In this document: piece by piece, positions 30,747 to 43,844 of the stretch
Layout: each line of letters begins with the position of its first letter
Position numbering within the stretch: position 1 is the stretch's first letter
Assembly: GCA_001664505.1 (NCBI GenBank)
Contig: CP011806.1
Location: 3,322,170-3,386,169, forward strand
DNA from: Acidobacteria bacterium Mor1
Lineage (GTDB): Bacteria; Acidobacteriota; Polarisedimenticolia; Polarisedimenticolales; Polarisedimenticolaceae
DNA length: 64,000 nt
Direction of reading: 5' to 3'
Position numbers and translations under genes: made by a program
The notes under the pieces: generated by a model
Told to the model about the DNA's origin: nothing
Databases searched by the model: none
Seen by the model: the letters and a program-made list of their open reading frames with translations, nothing else

Positions 30747-30901
30747 CGTTCCATGCTAACAAGCTGCGGCCCGCACCGAGACTCCCGCAGGGCATCCTGA
30801 CCGTTTCCTGACAAAACCCTTGCCCGCCGTTGACCCCTCGGAAAGCGGCGCTCGCTACGCTCGTTCGGTCACTCGCTCGCCACGTCTCAGGGAGGTGCTC
30901 C

Positions 30902-31657
30902 ATGATCCGATTCCGACTCATCGCCGCTTTTTCGATTGCTCCGCTGCTGATGTGCCTGGCCGCATCACAGGCCCAGGCGCAGATCCCGGACACGTTCGAG
31001 AACCTGCAGGTATTGCCCGAGAACATCTCCAAGCAGGAGCTGATGCAGATCATGCGCAAGTTCGCCGGGGATCTGGGTGTGCGCTGCAGCCACTGTCACG
31101 AAGGGCCGGACAACCTCCAGGGCATGGACTTCGCCACCGACGAGAAACCGGCCAAGAAGGTCGCCCGCTCGATGATGAAGATGGTCGACGCGATCAACGA
31201 CAAACATCTGGCCGGCGTCGAGACCGGGCGGGAGCTACGGGTCGAGGTCACCTGCCAGACCTGCCACAGCGGACTCAACGTACCCCGCACCATCGATGGG
31301 CTGATTGCCGACAGGCTGAAGAGCGACGGCATCGAATCCGCGAGGGCGCTCTACCGCGATTTGCGGGAGCAGCACTTCGGCAGTGCGGCCTACGACTTCT
31401 CGAGCAAGCCGCTCAACACCCTGGCCGAGAGAGTCGCGCGCGGCGGCCAGGTCGATGAGGGCCTGGCGCTGATCGACCTGAACATCGAGTTCCACCCCGA
31501 GGACGGCTACACCCGGATCCTCCAGGGAGGGATCCTGATGTCCGCAGGTAAACGGGACCAGGCGATCGCCGCCTTCGAGAAAGCGCTCGAGATCGATCCG
31601 GAGAACGGCTGGGCTCGGCAGCAGCTCGAAAGGATCCGCGGCGCAGGCGAGAAGTAG
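30902..31657 (+). CDS. di-heme c-type cytochrome of the reaction-centre cytochrome family fused to TPR
   Basis: 251 residues from the ATG at 30902 with GGGAGGTG upstream. Signal peptide at 1-26. Heme motifs are CSHCH (62-66) and CQTCH (118-122), both CxxCH. Around them lies the pattern of the photosynthetic-reaction-centre cytochrome c family: LPENISKQELMQIMRKFAG, then DEKPAKKVARSMMKMVDAIN. These small relatives, with two hemes rather than four, are numerous in Acidobacteriota and Planctomycetota, which lack reaction centres. The C-terminal ~80 residues form a TPR (GGQVDEGLALIDLNIEFHPE, AIAAFEKALEIDPENGWARQ). A periplasmic electron carrier held in a larger assembly is inferred. A long helical terminator follows. 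Confidence 0.87.
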   Translation: MIRFRLIAAFSIAPLLMCLAASQAQAQIPDTFENLQVLPENISKQELMQIMRKFAGDLGVRCSHCHEGPDNLQGMDFATDEKPAKKVARSMMKMVDAINDKHLAGVETGRELRVEVTCQTCHSGLNVPRTIDGLIADRLKSDGIESARALYRDLREQHFGSAAYDFSSKPLNTLAERVARGGQVDEGLALIDLNIEFHPEDGYTRILQGGILMSAGKRDQAIAAFEKALEIDPENGWARQQLERIRGAGEK

Positions 31658-31725: not shown

Positions 31726-32328
31726 CTAGAAGCCGATAGTCAGGGCGACGCCGAAGGTGTCCAGGTCGCCCTCACCGGTCTCACCCACCTCACCCACGTC
31801 GAAATAGCGCCGGCCCTCGAAACGCAGGCCGAAGCGACCGGCTAAATCGACGGTCGCGCCAACCCCGATCAGCGGCGAGGTGCCGCTCGCTTCGCTGAAC
31901 TCGGGGACACCGCCGAAGATCTCGTTCTCCTCGACATCGAAACGCGCGGCGCCAATCCGCGCCAGGAAGGCGACCTTCCCCTCGGAGTCGTGCTCGTAGA
32001 GGGCGCTGGCCTCCCACGCGGTCGCCTCGATGTTGCCCACGTCCGATACCGGCGAACCGTTGAACAGGAAGGTCCCGTCGAAGTCGGTCTCCCCCAGATC
32101 GGCGTAGCCCCCCTCCACGCCCCAGCTCTCGCTGAACTTGTAGACAAAGCCGACCTGGAATCCATTGCCGTCGTCGGAGGAGTTGCCGCTGAACTGCCCC
32201 CCCTTGAAGTCCTGGGCGGTGGCGGTCACACCTACGACAACTTGACACATCTCCTCCCCGGCGGTTGCCCCGGAAAACACAAAAATCATCAGCGCCAGCC
32301 ATCCGGCAGCGCGCGTGAGTCCGTTCAT
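31726..32328 (-). CDS. OmpA-like/porin-family outer-membrane beta-barrel protein
   Basis: 200 residues from the ATG at 32328 (start chosen to give a proper signal peptide, LTRAAGWLALMIFVFSGATA). Eight or so alternating strands follow: GFQVGFVYKFSESWGVEGGY, the usual glycine/aromatic pattern of small barrels, and it ends FGVALTIGF with a terminal Phe. There is no periplasmic OmpA peptidoglycan-binding domain. It resembles the small stress-induced barrels (OmpW/OmpX-like) seen in many Gram-negatives. A structural or transport role cannot be assigned. It stands alone on this strand. Confidence 0.75.
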   Translation of the reverse strand: MNGLTRAAGWLALMIFVFSGATAGEEMCQVVVGVTATAQDFKGGQFSGNSSDDGNGFQVGFVYKFSESWGVEGGYADLGETDFDGTFLFNGSPVSDVGNIEATAWEASALYEHDSEGKVAFLARIGAARFDVEENEIFGGVPEFSEASGTSPLIGVGATVDLAGRFGLRFEGRRYFDVGEVGETGEGDLDTFGVALTIGF

Positions 32329-32487
32329 TGCATCTCTCCCACAGCGGGCGTGCTTGGTTTCGGTCCGCCGGCCCACGCCCTCCTGCTGAAGCGGACTCAC
32401 CTTGTGAGAGAGGGGATGCCGGTGGTTTTTCCCAGGCCGCCGAAGAAATCCGTAGAAAGTGCATAATTCGCCCGCGGAAGGGGAAAT

Positions 32488-33015
32488 ATGGACGGGGCAT
32501 CGCCCATCGAAACCAGCGTGTCCGAGGCGGATCTCGAGGCCTTGATCGAGCGGTATTCGCGCCTGATGGCTGCGGCGGTCCGGCGCGTGGTCTCCCAGCC
32601 GGAGCTACTCCCCGACATCCGGCAGGAGATCCATCTGGCTCTGCTGAAGCGATTGCGAACAGGCCGAGACATCCGCCATCCCTCGTCGTACGTGTATAAG
32701 GTCGCGCTGACGACGGCGCGGACGGTGGTCCAGCGCTACGCTTCGCAGGAGCAGAACGTCGACACCGACGTGCTGGACACAACGCCGCTCCCCGGTGGGG
32801 AGGACCGGATGAAACCGGTGGAGCGGAGGATACTGGTGAAAGAGGTGCTGAACATGCTGCCCAAGGAGCAAGCGGTCGCGCTGCGCTGTTACCTCGGCGG
32901 GCTCAACCACGCGGAGGTCGCCCGGTTCTGCGGCTGGACCGAATCGGTGGCACGGCACCGGATCTACCGCGCGCTCGAGACCCTGCGTGAACGAGCAGAA
33001 GGAGCAAAGCGATGA
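32488..33015 (+). CDS. ECF-like RNA polymerase sigma factor
   Basis: 175 residues. Region 2 is LIERYSRLMAAAVRRVVSQP with LPDIRQEIHLALLKRL, and region 4 is LPKEQAVALRCYLGGLNHAE with VARFCGWTESVARHRIYRAL, a typical sigma-4 helix-turn-helix. The protein lacks region 1 and 3, as do ECF factors. Its stop overlaps the next start (ATGA), which joins it to the anti-sigma-like gene; this coupling is the usual arrangement of ECF/anti-sigma pairs. It probably directs transcription of its own operon and of envelope genes; no -35/-10 consensus could be assigned. Confidence 0.83.
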   Translation: MDGASPIETSVSEADLEALIERYSRLMAAAVRRVVSQPELLPDIRQEIHLALLKRLRTGRDIRHPSSYVYKVALTTARTVVQRYASQEQNVDTDVLDTTPLPGGEDRMKPVERRILVKEVLNMLPKEQAVALRCYLGGLNHAEVARFCGWTESVARHRIYRALETLRERAEGAKR

Positions 33016-33659
33016 ACGAAGCGGAACTGCGCTCCTTCCGGCAGGGCTATCGCGAGCTCCTCGCAGACGGTCCCGCCACCGAAGTGAGTGACGAAGAGAT
33101 CGCCTCGCTGATCACCGACGACCTTCCGGAAGACGCGCGAGAGGCCTTGATGGCGAAGGTGCTTGCGGCACCCGACGGACTCGAGCGCTACCGGGAACTC
33201 CAGGAGCTCCACGACGCCGCCCATGCGGAATCGTCCGCCGCGGCGACAGCGCGGCGTCGCGGACCTCTGCTGGCGCTGGCGGCCATGCTGATCTTCGGCT
33301 TGCTCGCGGCCGGATGGTTCATGAACCGGGAAACGACCGGAACCGCGCCGGTTCTCCGCTCGGTCGAAGATGCATCGATCTCGACTCCCCTTGCCGCTGA
33401 CGCCGGGCTCCCCCGCTCCGCCTTCGTCTTGCGCTGGATTCTCAACGGTGCAGCGGGCGAGGACGTTCGATTCGAACTGCGTATCTCTGACGACGATGCG
33501 CCGCTTTCGACCATCGAAGATCTTTCCGAGCCGCGCTACGACGCTTCGAGCATCGTGGCCGATTTGCCCGACGGCACGCCGATCTACTTCAAGGTGACCG
33601 CCCGTCTGGCCGACGGACGAACCGTCGACTCCGAGACCTTCATCGTCCGGATCAAGTAG
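33012..33659 (+). CDS. single-pass membrane anti-sigma-like protein
   Basis: 215 residues. A cytoplasmic N-terminal part of about 83 residues (SDEEIASLITDDLPEDAREA, helical, no zinc-binding HxxxCxxC) precedes one membrane helix (about 86-106, PLLALAAMLIFGLLAAGWF). About 110 residues lie outside; they read as a compact beta-sandwich, with FVLRWILNGAAGEDVRFELR and IYFKVTARLADGRTVDSETF. Its position directly after a sigma factor gene with overlapping stop and start argues for a membrane-held inhibitor, but no canonical anti-sigma domain is certain. It precedes the CHAT genes by 3 bases. Confidence 0.65.
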   Translation: MNEAELRSFRQGYRELLADGPATEVSDEEIASLITDDLPEDAREALMAKVLAAPDGLERYRELQELHDAAHAESSAAATARRRGPLLALAAMLIFGLLAAGWFMNRETTGTAPVLRSVEDASISTPLAADAGLPRSAFVLRWILNGAAGEDVRFELRISDDDAPLSTIEDLSEPRYDASSIVADLPDGTPIYFKVTARLADGRTVDSETFIVRIK

Positions 33660-33662
33660 GCC

Positions 33663-36600
33663 TTGGGGCGCCGCGCCATCCTGGTGGTCCTGATCGCAAC
33701 GCTAGTCCTGGCGGGTGCGGTCTCGGCCACATGGTCCGCGACCTTCACCGTCGATTCGGTCACCGACGGTGCAGCCGCAGCGCGAGCGGGCATCCAGCCG
33801 GGCGACCGGATCGTCAGCCTCGACGGCCGCAACCGCTGGACCAGCGCCGACTGGCTGTACGTCGAGGACGAGGCCGCCTTCGTCCGCCCCGTCGACTACA
33901 TCCTCGAACGAGACGGCGAGACGTTCCAGGTGTCGCTGCCGATCGGACCCCATGGCTGGGAGGTGTCCACCGACGGGGAGGACGAATCGTGCTTCGCGTG
34001 GCATCGGAACATGAAGGAGATCCTGGCGTCGGGAGGCACCGAGGGTTTGCTGGCAGGAGCGACCGAGGAAGTCGACGGGGTCGATCGCTATCCGTGGAAT
34101 GCCCTGGCGGCACGATTCGAGGCGGAGGCCCACGCGGCCTCGGCCCGGCCGGCCGACGCCCGAGCGGCTTTCCAGCGTGCGCTGGAAATCGCCGAGCCGG
34201 TCGAGCCTCTGCGAGCCGCCTCGATTCTGGCCCGGTGGGCGAGCTTCGAGGTCGTCCAGGCAAACGTCATGCAGGCGCGGAACCTGGCCCTGCGCGCCTC
34301 GGATCTGCGCCGGGCGGCTGCGCCGGACTCCCTACTGGCCGTCCGCAGCGAGGGAGAACTCGCCGAGATCGCCTGGTGGAGCGGTGACGTTGCCGGACAT
34401 CGCGAACGAGCGAGCAAGGCGGTCGCCTGGGCCGAACAGGTAGGGCCGGAGACACTCGAGCATGCACGGGCCCTGGTGCGCCTCGGGATCAGCGATTGGG
34501 CCTACGGCGACATCGTCTCGTCAGTGACCCACCTCGAACGTGCCGTCGCCATCGCCGAACAACAGGCTCCCGGATCGACAGTCCACGCCCACGCCCTGAA
34601 CAACCTGGCGCGCCCTGTGGTGATCATGGGTGATCTGCTGCGGGCGAGGGAACTCACGCGCCAGGCGCTGGCCATTCGCGAAAAGGTCGTACGAGGCTCC
34701 CTGGACCACGCATGGAGCCACAACAACCTGGGGAACTTCGAACTCTGGATGGGGAACTACCGCGCATCCAGAGAGCACTATCTGGAAGCCTGGAAGATTC
34801 GCCGACGCCGCGCCCCCGGAACCCCTTCGGAAGCCTATTCGATGATGAACCTGGCGGACCTGACCGTGCAGCTCGGCGATTTGCAGGGCGGCCGCGAATA
34901 CATCGAACGGGGGCTTGACATCATCACCGGCGTGCTTCCGGGAACTCCGGACGAGGCGCTCTGCCTTCGCACCCTGGGTGAGATCGATCTCTACCAGGGC
35001 AAGCACACCCCGGCGATCGAACGGCTGGAGCGGGCACTCTCGATTCAGTCTTCGCTTGTCGACGCCAACGGCGAACTCATCTTCATTCACCTCTCGCTGG
35101 GCCGCGCGTTCCTGGAGTCGGGGGAACTGGACGAGGCGCTGCAGCACCTCCGCCGTGCCGAGGCGATGCACGACCCCGCCCGCGGCCTCGGAATCACCGA
35201 GACCCTCGGGATCAGCCGGATGCAACAGGCGGAGATCGCCCGGCGACGGGGGAACCTGGAACGCGCCCGAGAACTGAACCTCGCCGCCCTCGAGATCTAT
35301 GAGAACTGGGAGGGCGCCCTGGTCCGCGCGGAAGTCCTGCACCAGCTGGGGCACCTGGCCACGGCAGAGAACGAATCGGCGGAGGCGCTGGAGTACTTCC
35401 GTGCTGCCGTCGACGAGATCACCGCCGCCGACCGGCGAATCGGAGGGCAGTGGGCTCGGATGTACGCCTCGCGCAAGAGCGCGGAGATCCATCACAGCCT
35501 GATCGGCGCGCTGATCGAACGGGAGCGGGCCGCCGAGGCCCTGGTTGCCCTCGAAGGCTCCCGGGCGCGGGGCATGATGGCCTACCTCGCCGACCGCAGC
35601 ATCGATTGGCGCACGATCGTCGGAGACTCGATGGACGCGCTGGATACCCTCCGCGCCCGCCGACGGGTCATCTCCGAACAGATGATGCGCTCTCATGAGG
35701 GCACCGACCGGAACACGATCCAGGCGTGGCGCGCCGAGCTGGCGACCCTTCATGCCGAAGAGGACGCCATCGCCGATCGCATCAAGGGTGCCCGGCCGGA
35801 GATCGCCGCGGTCCGCTACCCGACACCACTCGGGAGTGAGGAGATCGCCGCGGCAATCCCGGAGGGAACCCTGCTCCTGGCGTTCTCGGTAGGCCGTCAA
35901 TCGACACACGTTCTGGGTGCCGCGCCCGGCCCGGAGGGTGGACTCGCCGTCGAGGCGCATACCCTCCCGGGCGGCCACGATGACCTGATTCACCGTGTGG
36001 AAATCCTGCGCGGATTGATCACACCGACCTACGCTCAGCAGAACTCCGACGCCTGGTTCCAGGGCAGCCGCAAGCTCTCCCAACAGCTCCTCGGCCCGTT
36101 GGCCGGACCGATCCGGGAGGCTCGAAGGCTGGTCTTCATGCTCGACGGCCCGCTCAACCTGCTGCCCCTGTCTCTGTTCCTCGACGATGCCGGCGAACCG
36201 CTGGTCGCCGCCCGGCCGGTCCACAGCGTGCCGTCGATCGAAACCTACCGGCGGATGAAATCGGAACGGGGGGAATCCCCCGATTTGCGCTGGGTCGGCG
36301 TCGGAGCGCCGGAGCTCGATCCGGCCGGCCGGGTCGACGAAGAAGCGTTGGCTCCGAACTCCCGCTTCCGCACTCGAGGCCGGCGGCTGCTTCCCCTTCC
36401 CGGAGCGAAGACCGAACTCGAGGCGATTCGCAACCTCGTCGGTCGCGGCGGCACGAAGCTCTACGTCGGCAAGAGCGCGTCGGAATCCCAGGTGCGCTCC
36501 TGGGACGAGCATGCCTCCATCGTTCACTTCGCCAGTCATGGACTGGTCGACGACCGCCTCCCCCTGCAGTCCGCCCTCGTGCTCGCGGCCCGCGACGGGG

Positions 36601-37079
36601 CACCCCATGACGGATTCCTGCAGGCCTGGGAGATCCTTGACGACGTTCGGCTTCCGGCGGATCTGGTGGTGCTCTCCGCCTGCGATACCGGTGGCGGAGA
36701 GATCGTGACCGGCGAGGGCCTGCTGGGGCTCAGCCAATCGTTCCTGCTCGGAGGTGCCCGGAGCGTATTGGTCAGCCTGTGGCCGATCTCCGATGAGTCC
36801 GCTCCGGAGCTGATGAAGCAGTTCTACCGCCGGCTGATCGAGGGGTTGCCCAAGGATGAGGCTCTGCGCCAGGCCCAGCTCGAACTGCGGAGATCCGGCC
36901 GCTATGCCCACCCCTACCACTGGGCTGGGTACCGGCTGATCGGTGACGAGCGTGGCGTGCCAGCGGTGGAGGGCAGGGGTAGCGGTTTCCTCGATCGGGG
37001 ATGGATCTCGGCGGGGCTCGGCCTCGGGGCTCTGCTGCTCGTGATCGCGATCTTCCACCTGTTGCGCCGAAATCGATGA
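33663..37079 (+). CDS. PDZ-TPR-CHAT protein with N- and C-terminal membrane segments
   Basis: 1138 residues from a TTG three bases after the previous stop; no strong ribosome-binding site. Residues 5-27 are a hydrophobic signal or anchor. A PDZ-like domain follows (about 28-100, GAAAARAGIQPGDRIVSLDG). About 130-640 is a run of TPRs (for example AHALNNLARPVVIMGDLLRA, HNNLGNFELWMGNYRASREH). About 720-1105 is a caspase-like CHAT domain with the catalytic dyad H959 in VHFASHG and C1007 in VLSACDTGGGE. A final membrane helix (about 1112-1132) ends LRRNR. CHAT proteases cleave partners when their TPR part is triggered; here the domain appears to be outside the cytoplasm. It is third in the sigma/anti-sigma operon. 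Confidence 0.88.
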   Translation: MGRRAILVVLIATLVLAGAVSATWSATFTVDSVTDGAAAARAGIQPGDRIVSLDGRNRWTSADWLYVEDEAAFVRPVDYILERDGETFQVSLPIGPHGWEVSTDGEDESCFAWHRNMKEILASGGTEGLLAGATEEVDGVDRYPWNALAARFEAEAHAASARPADARAAFQRALEIAEPVEPLRAASILARWASFEVVQANVMQARNLALRASDLRRAAAPDSLLAVRSEGELAEIAWWSGDVAGHRERASKAVAWAEQVGPETLEHARALVRLGISDWAYGDIVSSVTHLERAVAIAEQQAPGSTVHAHALNNLARPVVIMGDLLRARELTRQALAIREKVVRGSLDHAWSHNNLGNFELWMGNYRASREHYLEAWKIRRRRAPGTPSEAYSMMNLADLTVQLGDLQGGREYIERGLDIITGVLPGTPDEALCLRTLGEIDLYQGKHTPAIERLERALSIQSSLVDANGELIFIHLSLGRAFLESGELDEALQHLRRAEAMHDPARGLGITETLGISRMQQAEIARRRGNLERARELNLAALEIYENWEGALVRAEVLHQLGHLATAENESAEALEYFRAAVDEITAADRRIGGQWARMYASRKSAEIHHSLIGALIERERAAEALVALEGSRARGMMAYLADRSIDWRTIVGDSMDALDTLRARRRVISEQMMRSHEGTDRNTIQAWRAELATLHAEEDAIADRIKGARPEIAAVRYPTPLGSEEIAAAIPEGTLLLAFSVGRQSTHVLGAAPGPEGGLAVEAHTLPGGHDDLIHRVEILRGLITPTYAQQNSDAWFQGSRKLSQQLLGPLAGPIREARRLVFMLDGPLNLLPLSLFLDDAGEPLVAARPVHSVPSIETYRRMKSERGESPDLRWVGVGAPELDPAGRVDEEALAPNSRFRTRGRRLLPLPGAKTELEAIRNLVGRGGTKLYVGKSASESQVRSWDEHASIVHFASHGLVDDRLPLQSALVLAARDGAPHDGFLQAWEILDDVRLPADLVVLSACDTGGGEIVTGEGLLGLSQSFLLGGARSVLVSLWPISDESAPELMKQFYRRLIEGLPKDEALRQAQLELRRSGRYAHPYHWAGYRLIGDERGVPAVEGRGSGFLDRGWISAGLGLGALLLVIAIFHLLRRNR

Positions 37080-37197
37080 CCTCGGGGAAAAAATCCCGCG
37101 ACAGGGTGAGGAAGCGACCGGGGATTCGGCGTCTCGACCCCAGGGGGGGATCCGTGAGAGCCATGAGCCATCATCTTCGCGAGCGCCGAAAGTGCCG

Positions 37198-39984
37198 ATG
37201 CGCCGCCTGATCGCAGCCCTGCTGCTTGCCGCGGCTGCCGGGGCGCCGGCCCGGGCCGACGTCTCGCTGGCCGACATCTCCCTGGCCGAGGTACGGGGCT
37301 ACGACGACTGCGACACCCTGGCCACCCGCCATCCGGACTCCTACGAGGCCCATCGTTGCTACTGGATGCTCTCCCGGAGGGGCGCCGGCTTCGAAGAGGC
37401 GGAGCGGCGGCTTCGCAACCGGCTGGCGGTGGACCCCGGCAACACCCTGGCTCGCTTCATGCTGGGCAAGGTGGTGCAGGACTCGGGTGAGCGGGAGCGG
37501 GCCGAGCCGATTCTCCGCGAGGCGGTCACACGGTTTCGTGACGAGAGTTACTCCCGGGGCGAGGTGCACGCCCGGCTCTCCCTCAGTTCGATGTTGGCCA
37601 TGCTCGGCCGTCCCGAGGAGTCCGTCACCGAACTGGACGCTGCAGGAGAGGTCGCAGATCGCTCCGGTGACAGGGAACTGGTCCAGGCGGTGGTCAGCGA
37701 ACGGGCCTGGAACGCTTACCGCAAACATGACTACGGCCACGCCTACGCCTTCTTCCACGACCTGCATTCGATGCTCGACGAGAACAGCCCCAGCTACCTG
37801 CGGGGAGAGGCGCTCTCGGGACTCGGGGCATCGAGCTGGGGGATGCAACGCTTCGCCGACTCGCTGCGCTACTACCGCGAAGAAGCAGCCCTTCGCCGCC
37901 GGGTCGGCGATCGCCATGCCGAGGCACTGGCCCGGGGCAACGTGCTGTTGCTGCTGGCCAACGTGCAGGACATCGAACTCGAGGAGCGGCTGCAGTATCT
38001 GAAGGAGTCCCTCGACGCCGCGCGGCGCTCCGAAAACCGCCGCGCCGAGTCGACGGTCCTGCGGCTGTGGGCCCTGGCCGATCCGGCGGATCCCCGGGGA
38101 GTCGAGCGATTGGAGCGGGCTGCGTCGATCTCCCGGGACCTGGCCGACGTCACCAGCCTGTGCAACGTCCTTCCCGAGCTGGCGAAACGGGTGATCGACG
38201 ACGATCCCGAACGCGCCTTCACCCTGGTCGACGAGGCTATCGAGGTCGCCCGGGCCGCGGCCAACGATTTCGGCCTGGCCCATGCCTCGGTGACCAAGGG
38301 ACACCTGCGCTGGCGAACCGGTCCCCGGGATGCGGCCATTCACGATTCCCTCGCTTCCCTCGACGCCATCGAACGCATGCGGGACCGGCAGTCGGACAGC
38401 TCCGCCCGGGCGATTCACTTCCAGCGCTGGTACGGCGCGTACTACGAGATCGCAGCCCGGCTGCTGCGCCCCGAGGGACGCCAGGCGACCGCGGAAGAAC
38501 AGGAGCTGGCGTTTCAGATCGTCGAACGGATGCGCACGCGGCAGCTCATCGAACGTCTGGACCGCGCCGAGGGACACCGCGTGCCTGACGCCCCCGAGGC
38601 GGTACTCTCCGAGCGGGAGGACATCCTCGAGCAGATCTCCGAGGTGCAGAACCGCCTGATGCGCGGGCTGCGCGGCGCCGAGAGAAGCGAAGCGCTATCG
38701 GCTCTCGAGGAGCTGGAACATCGCGAGAACGTGCTGCGGGCCGAGATCGCCCGGGCGGATCCGCAGTTCGGCGCCTTGCGCCGGCCATCCCTCCCGACCC
38801 TCGATCAGCTGAGATCCTCCATCGGCGAGGACCAGGCGCTGCTCTCTTTCCAGCTGGCCAACGGCGTTCCGGTGTCCCTTCTGGTCGTCCACACCTCACG
38901 GGAGACCCGCAGCTACCCGGTGCCCACCATCGCCGCGCTGAACTCCGCCGTGCGCCTCTACCGGGGATTGCTCGAACGACGGGACGGGAGCGCCGGCGAA
39001 TCCGGTGCGAGCCTTTTCTCAACGCTGCTGGAGCAACCCCTGGCCGACCTGCCGGATTCGGTGCACCGCCTGGTCATCGTCCCGGACGGTCCGCTGCAAC
39101 AGCTCCCCTTCGACACGCTGACCCTCGACGGATTCGAGGACAAACTGGTCAGCCGCTACGACCTGTCGCTGACGCCCTCGATCTCCGCATGGCTGCGCTT
39201 CCGCGAGAAGAGCCCCGCCGACTCCGCCCGCTCGATCCTGGCACTCGCCGACCCGGTGCACCCCGCGCATCAGGGGAACGAGGCCGGAGGCACGCGAGAG
39301 TCCACCTTCGGCGTGCAGCTCGGCCCGCTCCCCTTCGCTCGCAAGGAGGCAACCGGTGTGGTCGAACGCCTGGGACGAGGCGGTCTGGCCGAAACCGGTG
39401 AAGACGCAACCGAGGCGTTGATCAAGAGCGCCGACCTGCGTGAGTTCCGGGTGCTCCATTTCGCGGCTCACGCCCTGCTCGATGAGGACAAGCCGGAGCG
39501 CACCTCGATCCTGCTCGCCCCCGGAGACGGGAGCGATGACGGCTTGCTGCAGTTCAGGGAGATCGTCAACCTGGACCTGGACGGCCAGGTCGTGGTGCTG
39601 TCGGCCTGCCGCAGCGCGACTGGGAAGGAGATCCGCGGGGAAGGGGTGATGGGGCTGGCCCACGCCTTCTTCCAGGCAGGCGCCCGGGCGGTCATCGGCG
39701 GCCTGTGGCCCCTGCGAGATGACGAGGCCGAACGGCTGATGGGGCAGGTCTACCGGGAGCTCGACCGGGGGGCCAGCCTGAGCGAGGCCATGGCGCGAAC
39801 CCGCCGGGCCGAGGCACGGCGGGGCATCCCTGCCGCGGCCTGGGCCGGCCTGGTGGTGATGGGAGACGGCGACTACGCCCCCTTCAGGGACAGTCCCTCC
39901 ACCAACAAGGTCTGGATTCCGATCGTAGCGGCCGGCGCGTTCGGACTGCTGATGGTCTGGGTCGCCCGCCGGCGTCAGGCCTGA
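37198..39984 (+). CDS. TPR-CHAT protein with signal peptide and C-terminal membrane anchor
   Basis: 928 residues from the ATG at 37198 (a GTG at 37192 is an alternative). The first 20 residues (MRRLIAALLLAAAAGAPARA) are a signal peptide. TPR-like repeats fill about 30-430 (for example LREAVTRFRDESYSRGEVHA, SLRYYREEAALRRRVGDRHA). A coiled linker (about 450-520) leads to a CHAT domain (about 560-900) with catalytic H758 in HFAAHALLDE and C804 in VVLSACRSATGKE. The last helix (about 905-923, PIVAAGAFGLLMVWVA) and the basic end RRRQA fit a tail anchor with the protease in the periplasm. It lies 118 bases after the first CHAT gene, same strand, and shares its general layout but lacks the PDZ domain. 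Substrates unknown. Confidence 0.87.
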   Translation: MRRLIAALLLAAAAGAPARADVSLADISLAEVRGYDDCDTLATRHPDSYEAHRCYWMLSRRGAGFEEAERRLRNRLAVDPGNTLARFMLGKVVQDSGERERAEPILREAVTRFRDESYSRGEVHARLSLSSMLAMLGRPEESVTELDAAGEVADRSGDRELVQAVVSERAWNAYRKHDYGHAYAFFHDLHSMLDENSPSYLRGEALSGLGASSWGMQRFADSLRYYREEAALRRRVGDRHAEALARGNVLLLLANVQDIELEERLQYLKESLDAARRSENRRAESTVLRLWALADPADPRGVERLERAASISRDLADVTSLCNVLPELAKRVIDDDPERAFTLVDEAIEVARAAANDFGLAHASVTKGHLRWRTGPRDAAIHDSLASLDAIERMRDRQSDSSARAIHFQRWYGAYYEIAARLLRPEGRQATAEEQELAFQIVERMRTRQLIERLDRAEGHRVPDAPEAVLSEREDILEQISEVQNRLMRGLRGAERSEALSALEELEHRENVLRAEIARADPQFGALRRPSLPTLDQLRSSIGEDQALLSFQLANGVPVSLLVVHTSRETRSYPVPTIAALNSAVRLYRGLLERRDGSAGESGASLFSTLLEQPLADLPDSVHRLVIVPDGPLQQLPFDTLTLDGFEDKLVSRYDLSLTPSISAWLRFREKSPADSARSILALADPVHPAHQGNEAGGTRESTFGVQLGPLPFARKEATGVVERLGRGGLAETGEDATEALIKSADLREFRVLHFAAHALLDEDKPERTSILLAPGDGSDDGLLQFREIVNLDLDGQVVVLSACRSATGKEIRGEGVMGLAHAFFQAGARAVIGGLWPLRDDEAERLMGQVYRELDRGASLSEAMARTRRAEARRGIPAAAWAGLVVMGDGDYAPFRDSPSTNKVWIPIVAAGAFGLLMVWVARRRQA

Positions 39985-40136: not shown

Positions 40137-42005
40137 GTGGAGATGGCCGTGAAACACCTGGAAGGCTCGCCCAAGGCCTGGGTTTCCCTGATCGATCGAT
40201 TGCCGGCGATGGTCGCCTACGTAGACCGCAACCGCCGCTTCCGCTTCGTCAACGACGCCTACGCCCGGGCACACGCGAGTTCGCCATCGCTCCTGACCGG
40301 CGTGCCCGTAGCCGAGGTAAGCGCCTCGCTCTATCGCGGCATCGCCCATCACATCGACGCGGTGCTGCAGGGCCAGCCGCAGAACTTCGAGTTCCCCTAC
40401 CTGGCGCCCAACGGCAAGCGAAGATGGCTACAGGCCGGCTACTACCCGGACCGGGACCAGGAGGGCAATATCCTCGGATTCTTCGCGTTCCTCCAGGACA
40501 TGCACTCCCGGCGGGACTCGAGCACCCTTCACGAACAGCTGCGCTTCGCCTGCGACCAGGGGAACGAGGGTTTCGCGCTCCACGACGAGAACGGCCTGTT
40601 CAGCTACGTGAACCCGGCCCAGGCCAACATGTACGGCTACAAGACCACCGAACTTCTCGGCGAATCCTGGACCCGGCTCTACGAACCGGACGAGGTTCAA
40701 CGCATCGAGCAGGAGCACTTCCCCGCCCTGATGCGAGACGGCCACTGGCGCGGCGAACTGCGCGGCCGCCGCAAGAGCGGAGAGCCCTTCGATGTCGAGG
40801 TCTCGCTGACGTTGCTCGTCGATGACGACGATCAGCCTTCAGGCCTGGTCTGCAACTGCACCGACATCACCGACCGCAAGCTGGCCGAAGCGTCGATGCA
40901 CCAGCTGCAGAAGATGGACGCCCTGGGGAAACTCACCGGAGGCATCGCCCACGACTTCAACAACATGCTGGCGGTGATCGTCGGGAACCTGAACCTGATC
41001 AAGCTGTCGATCGGCGAGGAGAGCCCGGTGGCCAAGCATCTGGACCGGGCGCTCGGAGCGGCCGAGGGCGGCGCCAAGCTGACCCGGCGGCTGCTGGCCT
41101 TCGCCCGCAAGCAACCGCTGGCGCCGGACGTCGTCAACGTTCGCGAACTGGTGCTGGGAATGCGGGAGTTGATCGAGCGCTCACTGGGTGAACGCATTCG
41201 CGTCGAGGTGGATTGCGCCGATGACCTTTGGCCCTGCCACGTCGACGGCTCCCAGCTCGAGAACGCGATCCTCAACCTGGCGATCAACGCCCGGGACGCC
41301 CTTCCCGACGGAGGATGCGTCTGCATCGAGCTGAGGAACGTGTTCGAGCACGAGCGGGTCCCGGCAGGGCTGCCGCCACAGAACGTCTCGATCGTGGTGC
41401 GCGACAACGGCACCGGGATGCCCGAGGATGTGCTGCAGCGGGTCTTCGATCCCTTTTTCACCACCAAGACTGCCGACCAGGGCACCGGCCTCGGCCTCAG
41501 CATGGTCCATGGCTTCGTCACCCAGTCCGAAGGACGGATCGAGGTCGATTCCGAACTGGGCCGGGGAACGACCGTCCGCATCTTGCTGCCGAGGTACCTC
41601 GGCGCGGGCGCCGAGACGAGCGCATCTCCCGAGAAGGCCGACTCGGTTCCGGGCAACAGCGAAACGGTGCTGCTGGTCGAGGACCGGCAGGATGTGCTCG
41701 AAGCGACGGCGGCGATGCTCGAATCGCTGAACTACCGGGTGTACACCGCGACCGATGTCGAAACCGCGAAGGAACAGCTCAACGCCGCGCCGATAGACCT
41801 GCTGCTGTCCGACGTGATCCTGCCGGGGGAGAGCAGCGGTCCCGAGTTGGTGCGCTTCGTCGGCGAGGAGTATCCGGACCTTCCGGTCCTGCTGATGTCC
41901 GGGTATGCCGATGTCGACATCCGCACCCTCGGGTTGGAAGTGATCTCGAAGCCGTTCTCCCTGGAGCAACTGGCACGGGCCATTCGCACCAACCTCGAAC
42001 GCTAG
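40137..42005 (+). CDS. cytoplasmic PAS-PAS hybrid histidine kinase with receiver
   Basis: 622 residues from GTG at 40137 (an ATG at 40143 is possible). No membrane segment is visible. PAS domain 1 lies at about 12-125 and PAS domain 2 at about 130-255 (FALHDENGLFSYVNPAQANM, followed by the PAC-like RGRRKSGEPFDVEVSLTLL). HisKA has H272 in GGIAHDFNNML; HATPase_c has NLAINARDALPDGG (N box), DNGTGMPE and GTGLGLSMVHGF. The receiver domain (about 505-622) has the acceptor D559 in LLLSDVILPGE and the conserved K in VISKPFSLEQL. It is a complete self-phosphorelay with no output domain. The second kinase gene follows by 111 bases. Confidence 0.9.
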   Translation: MEMAVKHLEGSPKAWVSLIDRLPAMVAYVDRNRRFRFVNDAYARAHASSPSLLTGVPVAEVSASLYRGIAHHIDAVLQGQPQNFEFPYLAPNGKRRWLQAGYYPDRDQEGNILGFFAFLQDMHSRRDSSTLHEQLRFACDQGNEGFALHDENGLFSYVNPAQANMYGYKTTELLGESWTRLYEPDEVQRIEQEHFPALMRDGHWRGELRGRRKSGEPFDVEVSLTLLVDDDDQPSGLVCNCTDITDRKLAEASMHQLQKMDALGKLTGGIAHDFNNMLAVIVGNLNLIKLSIGEESPVAKHLDRALGAAEGGAKLTRRLLAFARKQPLAPDVVNVRELVLGMRELIERSLGERIRVEVDCADDLWPCHVDGSQLENAILNLAINARDALPDGGCVCIELRNVFEHERVPAGLPPQNVSIVVRDNGTGMPEDVLQRVFDPFFTTKTADQGTGLGLSMVHGFVTQSEGRIEVDSELGRGTTVRILLPRYLGAGAETSASPEKADSVPGNSETVLLVEDRQDVLEATAAMLESLNYRVYTATDVETAKEQLNAAPIDLLLSDVILPGESSGPELVRFVGEEYPDLPVLLMSGYADVDIRTLGLEVISKPFSLEQLARAIRTNLER

Positions 42006-42116
42006 TTCGCGTTCCCTGCCTCCTCGGCCTCGGCTCGGTTGTAACGAGAGTGTTTCGGTCGGAACCGGCGGCGCTTTCTCTGACGCCGAACCCTGAGGCT
42101 GCCTTACAATTGCGGC

Positions 42117-43844
42117 ATGACCCAGCTGGCCCAGCGGCTGCCTACCGGCGTGCGGATTCCCTGGTGGATCTGGCTCGGCGGCGCACTACTCGCCATCTGG
42201 CCTCTGGCCGGCCAGCTTCCGACCCTCGATTCCCATGCAGCCTGGATGCTTGCCTTCACCCTGCGCCTGCTCATCGAGGGAGCTGCGCACCTGTGGGCCG
42301 CAGCGCGGGCCGAGCTCCCGGCGCGCCTGCGGCTCGCCCTCAAGATCACCGGCGCCACTTCGTTGATCTCGGCGGGGACCGGCGTCCTCGACGTGATCCA
42401 GGCCGTGGGCGGTCCGGCACTCCTCAGCGAAACCCTGAGTTGGAGTTGGCTGCTCGGCTCCTATCTGATGGGAACCGTGGCGCTGCTCGTCTTCCCCTGG
42501 CGCCCCTCCCACGCAACCCAACATCGGCTGACGCTGCCCCTCGACGTGCTGATCACCAGCGGCGGGTTCATCGCGCTTCAGTGGATACTCGTCACCGCAC
42601 CTGCCGCCGCCCAGGACGCCACCGAGGGAGCGGCCAACGTGCCGTTGATCTACGGCCTGGCCCAGGCGATCTACCTGGTCGGTCTGAACGTGCTTGTCCT
42701 GCGCGGACGGGCGGTCCCCAGCCGGCGAGCGTTCTGGTGGTTCGTGATCGGACAGGCGCTCTACATTCCGGTCACCCTGTTCATCCAGCTGGAGCTCCCT
42801 CTGGGGGCGGACGAGTGGCTGGGAGATCTCGCTTACTTCGCCGGAGTCATCCCCACCTTGATGGCCATGGTCTGGATGCGCCACGACGCAATCACCGACG
42901 ACGCCGAACCCGGCCCCTCCTGGCTGCGGGACTTCAGCCCGCTGCCGGCGCTGGTCGGCCTCTTCCTCGGGATCGCGTTGATCACGGCGCTGCTTCGGGA
43001 CCAGCACGGCATGGCCCTGCAACTGGCCATCGCCCTTGCGGTCATCGCCGTACTCGCGGCCGTCCGCTCACTGCTCTCGAGCCGGCAGAACGCGCTGCTG
43101 CTGAGGGTCGAGGCGGAGCGGGAGCGCCTCTACCAGCGGGAACGCAAGCAGCTGGTCGAGCGGCTGGCCGGCGGCGTGGCCCACGAACTCAACAACGCCC
43201 TGGTGCCGATCATCGGCAACGCCGAGTTGGCGCTGAGCTCCCACGGAACGGCCAACCCGCGCAAGAGCCTGGAAGAGATCCGCTTCGCCGGAGAGCGGGC
43301 CGCCCGCCTCACGCAGCAGCTGTTGCGTTTCAGCGGACGCCAGCTCGATCACAAGGAGTCGATGGACCTCGGTGAGGCGGTGCTGGCGCTTCGCTGTTCC
43401 CTCGAAGGATCGCTTCATCGGGACGTATCGCTGGAACTCGACGCGGAGACGCCGCTACCCGTACGCGCGGACCGCAACCAGGTCGCACGAATGGTCGAAG
43501 AACTCGTGGAGAATGCGGTTCGCGCCATGCCCGCAGGGGGACGGATCCGGATTCGCGCGGCACTCGATCGACTGGAGCGGCCTTCCGACGGACCGGGACT
43601 TCCGGTTCCCCCGGGGGACTACGCGACGATCACCGTGGAAGATGATGGGCGCGGCATCGAAGCCGGCGAGCTGGAGCGCATCTTCCAGCCGTTCTACTCC
43701 GGGGGTTCCACGGGCCGCGCGGGCATGGGCCTCGCCGCCATTCAAGGGACCATGGGCGCCCACGGAGGGGGTGTCGCCCTGAAGTCCCGCCGGGGCGCCG
43801 GCACCACCGCGGCGCTCTACTTTCCCCTGCGCCAGCGGGACTGA
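42117..43844 (+). CDS. polytopic membrane sensor histidine kinase
   Basis: 575 residues. The first ~320 residues contain eight to nine hydrophobic helices (for example WIWLGGALLAIWPLAGQL, LLGSYLMGTVALLVFPW, ALVGLFLGIALITALLRD). The cytoplasmic part has a coiled linker, HisKA-like H356 in GGVAHELNNALVPIIGNAEL, and HATPase_c with VEELVENAVRAMPAGG (N box), DDGRGIEAGELERIFQPFYS and GMGLAAIQGTMGAHGG. There is no receiver domain. No response-regulator gene is adjacent; its partner may be the preceding hybrid kinase or a distant regulator. The ligand of the membrane part is unknown. Confidence 0.85.
   Translation: MTQLAQRLPTGVRIPWWIWLGGALLAIWPLAGQLPTLDSHAAWMLAFTLRLLIEGAAHLWAAARAELPARLRLALKITGATSLISAGTGVLDVIQAVGGPALLSETLSWSWLLGSYLMGTVALLVFPWRPSHATQHRLTLPLDVLITSGGFIALQWILVTAPAAAQDATEGAANVPLIYGLAQAIYLVGLNVLVLRGRAVPSRRAFWWFVIGQALYIPVTLFIQLELPLGADEWLGDLAYFAGVIPTLMAMVWMRHDAITDDAEPGPSWLRDFSPLPALVGLFLGIALITALLRDQHGMALQLAIALAVIAVLAAVRSLLSSRQNALLLRVEAERERLYQRERKQLVERLAGGVAHELNNALVPIIGNAELALSSHGTANPRKSLEEIRFAGERAARLTQQLLRFSGRQLDHKESMDLGEAVLALRCSLEGSLHRDVSLELDAETPLPVRADRNQVARMVEELVENAVRAMPAGGRIRIRAALDRLERPSDGPGLPVPPGDYATITVEDDGRGIEAGELERIFQPFYSGGSTGRAGMGLAAIQGTMGAHGGGVALKSRRGAGTTAALYFPLRQRD

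Follow-up and report, generated by a model that had tools for sequence, protein, structure and literature searches.

A sigma factor, membrane anti-sigma factor and CHAT protein module in Acidobacteria bacterium Mor1, with a predicted role for the membrane-tethered CHAT as an anti-sigma protease

Which enzyme makes the first cut in a membrane anti-sigma factor is the question raised by four same-strand genes of Acidobacteria bacterium Mor1, located at 32488 to 39984 of the window (the whole 64,000-nucleotide stretch analyzed, CP011806.1, 3,322,170 to 3,386,169, forward strand; coordinates are positions in this window). The genes encode, in this order, an extracytoplasmic function (ECF) sigma factor, a small membrane protein, a PDZ-TPR-CHAT protein (CHAT1) and a TPR-CHAT protein (CHAT2). 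The enzymes known to cut membrane anti-sigma factors first are mainly serine proteases, along with a small number of others. An earlier note on this DNA had proposed that the caspase-like CHAT proteins fill this role here. The sigma factor, the membrane anti-sigma factor and the membrane-tethered CHAT very probably constitute one functional unit, and it is likely that CHAT controls the anti-sigma. We lean slightly towards reading the locus as a signaling module in which CHAT is a predicted site-1-type protease for the anti-sigma. Conserved gene order, export signals and a C-terminal helix in the CHAT proteins, conserved His and Cys residues, and an anti-sigma architecture with a linker arginine were observed in the sequences and structure models. 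The features of the locus are as follows.

32488 to 33015, + strand: ECF-type sigma factor with regions 2 and 4, 175 amino acids (PF04542, 29.2 bits; PF08281, 34.6 bits; TIGR02937, 48.8 bits)
33012 to 33659, + strand: membrane anti-sigma-like protein, 215 amino acids (helical 1-82, transmembrane helix 88-103, FnIII-like 122-214)
33357 to 33359, + strand: codon of anti-sigma Arg116, predicted P1, in the context V-L-R-S, shared by all 35 anti-sigma proteins compared
33663 to 37079, + strand: CHAT1, 1138 amino acids, TTG start (PF12770, 230 bits; PF17820; PF13424), with a C-terminal hydrophobic helix
33738 to 33953, + strand: incomplete PDZ of CHAT1, which lacks the carboxylate-binding loop (PDZ profiles align only past that loop)
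36537 to 36539, + strand: codon of CHAT1 catalytic His959 (HFASHG motif)
36681 to 36683, + strand: codon of CHAT1 catalytic Cys1007 (SACDT motif)
37192 to 39984, + strand: CHAT2, 930 amino acids from GTG or 928 from ATG at 37198 (PF12770, 202 bits; AlphaFold2 model with pLDDT 83.9 and pTM 0.79)
39469 to 39471, + strand: codon of CHAT2 catalytic His760 (kept in 46 of the 48 triad CHATs)
39607 to 39609, + strand: codon of CHAT2 catalytic Cys806 (kept in all 48 triad CHATs)

The sigma and anti-sigma genes overlap by 4 bp, CHAT1 starts 3 bp past the anti-sigma gene, and CHAT2 lies 112 bp beyond CHAT1. Sigma70_r2 and Sigma70_r4_2 in the sigma gene product both exceeded the Pfam cut-offs, and the TIGR02937 match was likewise above its cut-off; the protein is short and contains regions 2 and 4 only, as in ECF factors. 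The anatomy described in the earlier note, namely a sigma factor and an anti-sigma with overlapping starts, followed by two TPR-CHAT proteins each with a signal or anchor and a C-terminal helix, was all present. The cysteines it named, C1007 and C804, were also right, C804 being C806 when CHAT2 is counted from GTG and not from ATG 37198.

In the genome of Mor1, 21 CHAT genes were found in 6.0 Mb on one contig. Fourteen had a Pfam-detected sigma gene no more than 5 kb away, against 3.1 expected, and none of 20,000 random draws reached 14; our own sigma profile added further sigma-linked CHATs (e.g., L054 and L056). Four further loci (L042, L043, L047 and L049) repeated the arrangement of sigma, anti-sigma and a CHAT bearing a C-terminal helix, and the 4-bp overlap between sigma and anti-sigma genes was present in most of the three-gene loci. 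A scan of genome contigs with the window anti-sigma alone gave no match. A profile built from the five anti-sigma proteins of the window and these four loci, run against 41 genomes belonging to the class, yielded 17 strong loci in other genomes; the next gene encoded a CHAT with a C-terminal helix in all 14 untruncated loci, and the contig ended in the remaining three. Genes in the fetched loci were predicted with a simple caller of our own and profiles iterated on the same loci, so that some starts are wrong. The same order was identified in other phyla and in Myxococcus, Corallococcus and Pyxidicoccus, where one small open reading frame (ORF) lies between the anti-sigma and CHAT genes. This small ORF of the Myxococcaceae (L119, 7328 to 7867, and matching ORFs) looks exported and could encode a ligand or inhibitor of CHAT. 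In Bacteroidota relatives (L151 and L160) the anti-sigma ectodomain was of a different kind, and L160 (Cyclobacteriaceae) carried a tandem CHAT pair after a sigma factor and a transmembrane protein. Across the collection, a sigma gene was present within 3 kb of CHAT in 34 of the 57 loci having enough flank.

The linkage of CHAT to a membrane anti-sigma, as put forward in the earlier note, was thus borne out by the sequence evidence and the conserved gene order. For the order itself, the sigma-anti-sigma-CHAT core stood up as conserved; the four-gene version with a PDZ-TPR-CHAT was seen only in the window, the very outcome that the note had named as counting against it, and the sister loci contained one CHAT and no PDZ. 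Anti-sigma and CHAT distances were correlated (r 0.52; 0 of 5,000 permutations), a value to which shared species history contributes. A candidate natural fusion of anti-sigma and CHAT in L129 was rejected, as the gene caller seems to have read its N-terminal part in the wrong frame.

The 215-amino-acid protein matched no Pfam family above the cut-off, and its sole NCBIfam match was "antisigma" at an E-value of 1e-3, far under the cut-off. The AlphaFold2 model (mean pLDDT 86) comprised helices at 3-82 and a membrane helix at 88-103, joined through a disordered linker to a beta domain at 122-214. The beta domain was FnIII-like (Z 10.4, 2.4 Å over 87 residues; FnIII folds generally gave Z of about 9-10), and the Foldseek/VIA list for this protein was taken up by matches to the FnIII part. 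A gene adjacent to sigma, a helical cytoplasmic domain and a single transmembrane helix are features shared with class I/ZAS anti-sigma factors. The HxxxCxxC zinc motif was kept in the homologs of L043, L047 and L049, and was lost in L042 and the window copy. The protein is read as an anti-sigma because it is homologous to the ZAS-type anti-sigma factors of the sister loci.

CHAT1 consists of a signal-like sequence, a partial PDZ, TPRs, the CHAT domain and a C-terminal helix; CHAT2 consists of a signal-like sequence, a TPR superhelix, the CHAT domain and a C-terminal helix. Their PF12770 scores were far above the cut-off of 24 bits, and the catalytic pairs H959/C1007 and H760/C806 were in place. 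Among 48 triad CHATs, Cys806 and Asp843 were invariant, and both His and Cys were kept in 46. In CHAT1 and CHAT2 the C-terminal hydrophobic helix is followed by a basic tail, so that, by the positive-inside rule and with the signal-like start, the bulk of both proteins is expected outside the cytoplasm. These signal-like N-termini and C-terminal helices favor the outward orientation proposed in the earlier note, and the CHAT proteins are predicted with high confidence to face outward. In addition, residues 40 and 56 of CHAT2 (37309 to 37311 and 37357 to 37359) are cysteines of the exported N-terminal region, nearly invariant among triad CHATs; they perhaps form a disulfide, which would fit a periplasmic location.

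Most other sigma-linked CHATs of the genome carried a lipobox-like signal and no C-terminal helix (L039, L045, L046, L048, L055 and L056, and probably L044, L050, L053 and L054), suggesting that these CHATs are exported too; no clear signal was found for L051, L052 and L057 in our gene calls. CHATs encoded next to a membrane anti-sigma gene would thus be held at the outer face of a membrane by either of two anchors, a C-terminal helix or a lipoprotein. In L053, L054, L055 and L056 the order was sigma, lipoprotein-like CHAT, anti-sigma, the last with an ectodomain type of its own (motif near AYPDT). The 21 CHAT genes, most of them beside a sigma/anti-sigma pair and in at least four arrangements, amount to a large expansion of parallel sigma-CHAT modules.

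In a fold comparison, the closest solved structure to the CHAT2 model was Csx29 (Z 30.8), followed by separase, of which the catalytic part was matched (Z 25.5, 3.3 Å over 320 residues), and DdvA (Z 21.6). CHAT2 was 27-42% identical to the CHATs of the four sister loci, with 42% and 38% for the two nearest, against 26% to CHAT1; CHAT1 was therefore assigned to another CHAT subfamily. CHAT2 is the predicted core protease of the conserved three-gene module. CHAT1 is probably a later addition, serving as a second input or activator.

To locate a candidate cut site, 35 distinct anti-sigma proteins with an FnIII-type ectodomain from such operons were compared; they include close Myxococcus relatives, so that the independent cases are fewer than 35. 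Arg116 was the only column identical in all 35, and the best other linker column between the membrane helix and residue 133 reached 69%. The 21 sequences aligned for the model all shared R116, W142, G188, V195 and G202; the latter four are inside the FnIII-like domain, and Arg116 is in the linker instead. The model had pLDDT below 50 only at 105-112 and 114-116, which includes Arg116. The residue lies about 12 residues outside the membrane and is usually preceded by a hydrophobic and followed by a small residue. Being invariant, juxtamembrane and in a disordered linker, Arg116 is a plausible scissile P1, and from these alignments a CHAT cut at or near it is predicted at roughly even chances. 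Linkers of other CHAT-linked anti-sigma classes also tended to have Arg before a small residue, a tendency found post hoc in few sequences and not used as proof.

The following mechanism can be proposed. At rest, the anti-sigma would keep the sigma factor at the membrane, with CHAT anchored beside it on the outer face, where a signal may be sensed through the TPR superhelix. Activated CHAT would cut the linker, most likely after Arg116. The remaining stub might then undergo an intramembrane cut by an M50/RseP-type protease and degradation, by which the sigma factor would be freed; several M50 protease matches were present in the genome. More broadly, a widespread family of caspase/separase-like envelope CHAT proteases, held at the inner membrane's outer face, may act as site-1 proteases of their own anti-sigmas, cutting after the invariant juxtamembrane Arg, may have been duplicated into many parallel sigma pathways per genome, and may be either the source or a descendant of fused DdvA-type anti-sigmas; our confidence in this broader proposal is evenly balanced.

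Several points weigh against the proposed mechanism. The window sigma and anti-sigma were unusually divergent from those of the sister loci, and CHAT2 was not, a pattern that a partial replacement of the locus could explain. Binding and inhibition of the sigma factor by the window anti-sigma are predicted from homology, and its zinc motif is lost. Separase cleaves after Arg, but the Asp that binds its P1 Arg has no invariant counterpart in CHAT2, as it aligns with E847, which is not conserved, while D843 is conserved in 48 of 48; this comparison does not establish Arg specificity for CHAT2. The invariant Arg116 may also be a partner-binding residue that is not cleaved. Further, Craspase orthologs cut between A and S, L and D, or M and K, so that a conserved P1 is not required of CHAT proteases (PMC11106740).

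An unlikely, though the best surviving, alternative is that CHAT is a non-proteolytic co-sensor, in which the CHAT/TPR part binds the FnIII ectodomain and stabilizes or inactivates the anti-sigma, as fused DdvA may do, with Arg116 as the docking residue. FnIII is a binding fold, extensive contacts between CHAT and substrate are possible, and DdvA-type chains fuse an anti-sigma with TPR-CHAT. A pure scaffold, however, would not need the catalytic pair that is kept in 46 of 48 triad CHATs and in the M. xanthus fusions. Slightly less probable is that CHAT is an output: the sigma factor would drive its own operon, and CHAT would be a regulated envelope protease or death effector cutting other proteins. 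Co-transcription is expected from the gene overlaps, ECF loci are commonly autoregulated, and caspase-like proteases are often effectors, but this explanation accounts neither for the anti-sigma-CHAT fusions, nor for the invariant linker Arg, nor for the recurrence of CHATs with one or the other kind of membrane anchor beside membrane anti-sigma genes.

As for the PDZ of CHAT1, PDZ profiles aligned only from position 25 of 81 (PF00595) or 15 of 80 (PF13180), and relatives of CHAT1 had a likewise incomplete alignment. Mature CHAT1 begins beyond where the carboxylate-binding loop would lie, so that its PDZ lacks the half that binds peptides. The analogy to DegS drawn in the earlier note through this PDZ is weakened accordingly: DegS-like sensing by CHAT1 is not expected, as the loop that binds C-termini is lacking. 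No trypsin-like serine protease domain of the DegS type was found in CHAT1 or CHAT2 with Pfam. Sensing of misfolded outer-membrane protein C-termini by the CHAT1 PDZ as the trigger for cleavage, for which a PDZ_6 match between the signal sequence and the TPRs and a divergent beta-barrel gene next door (31726 to 32400) could be cited, was rejected as very improbable given the lack of the loop, of PDZ-CHATs in the sister loci and of a trypsin-like domain. PDZ-TPR-CHATs in other genomes (L059 and L060) adjoin sigma/anti-sigma-like genes in other orientations.

The proposed cleavage of the anti-sigma by CHAT was compared with known systems. In M. xanthus, the ECF factor DdvS has DdvA as its anti-sigma, which responds to a signal yet to be identified (PMC4374960); the TPR-CHAT protein of PDB entries 8rot and 8rw5 is named "transmembrane anti-sigma factor DdvA". 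DdvA/DdvS and the window locus share an ECF sigma and a single-span membrane anti-sigma with an outward TPR-CHAT and His/Cys. DdvA is one chain, whereas the window locus is split, with a self-anchored CHAT and an anti-sigma bearing an FnIII ectodomain; a DdvA-type single chain was not found at this locus, where the genes are separate. In the M. xanthus genome behind L119 (strain AM003), three CHATs besides the split module look DdvA-type: complete chains of an N-terminal HxxxCxxC domain, a transmembrane segment, TPR and CHAT (His/Cys) directly after a sigma gene at L210 539-4032 and L211 5072-8469, and a shortened gene call at L209 1217-3961. The occurrence of these functions both split and fused is good evidence that anti-sigma and CHAT act together.

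In Craspase (type III-E CRISPR), the TPR-CHAT protease Csx29 cleaves Csx30, an anti-sigma that inhibits CASP-sigma, and in this way governs the activity of an ECF-like sigma (PMC10028731). In contrast to the window locus, Craspase is soluble, RNA-guided and Cas7-11-bound, and its cut sites are not conserved (PMC11106740). Csx30 and the window anti-sigma are comparable by role only, and the window CHATs scored 17.1 and 14.7 bits with the Csx29 model NF041237, below the cut-off of 300. In the DegS-RseP-RseA-sigmaE system, a single-span anti-sigma is similarly cut first on its periplasmic side, and M50 and ClpXP act afterwards (discussed in PMC10028731). DegS is a PDZ serine protease, whereas the window CHATs are of the clan CD cysteine type, CHAT1 having an incomplete PDZ and CHAT2 none. 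In CalpL/CalpT/CalpS, a protease also works together with an anti-sigma and an ECF sigma, but the protease is Lon-type and the switch is cyclic oligoadenylate (PMC11417357). Operons of peptidase C14 (metacaspase) with sigma-70 genes were reported in 2012 for M. xanthus, Haliangium and others; caspase-fold peptidase genes share operons with sigma factors there too, but C14 is not CHAT, and the part of that paper drawn on here contains no anti-sigma or cleavage model (PMC3501461). The catalytic part of separase, a eukaryotic, cohesin-cutting enzyme, superposes on CHAT2.

The earlier note had regarded a caspase-like protease for an anti-sigma as new. This holds in part: CHAT acting on an anti-sigma is known from Csx29/Csx30 (PMC10028731) and the fusion from DdvA (8rot), and protease-controlled anti-sigmas are already known. 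In the open-access literature searched, no description was found of a split, membrane-tethered module, of its many copies per genome or of the invariant arginine (Arg116). If the proposal is true, the clan of the eukaryotic death and mitosis proteases would be tied to bacterial envelope signaling, many exported CHAT proteins would gain a role and each a likely partner, and the signal of DdvA-type anti-sigmas would become approachable. The module is present in the genetically tractable Myxococcus xanthus and the candidate cut site is a single residue, which makes the idea directly testable.

By-eye inspection upstream of the operons gave nothing convincing as a shared ECF promoter, and no sigma-70-like promoter was found for them. 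Beside the sigma gene, the divergent outer-membrane beta-barrel gene (PF13505; 31726 to 32400, − strand) is a possible sigma target. The gene at 30830 to 31657 encodes a reaction-centre C family cytochrome (PF02276) whose C-terminus carries a TPR. Downstream of the CHAT genes and in the same orientation are two histidine kinase genes (40137 to 43844), one encoding PAS-HisKA-receiver and the other HisKA with a hydrophobic N-terminal part.

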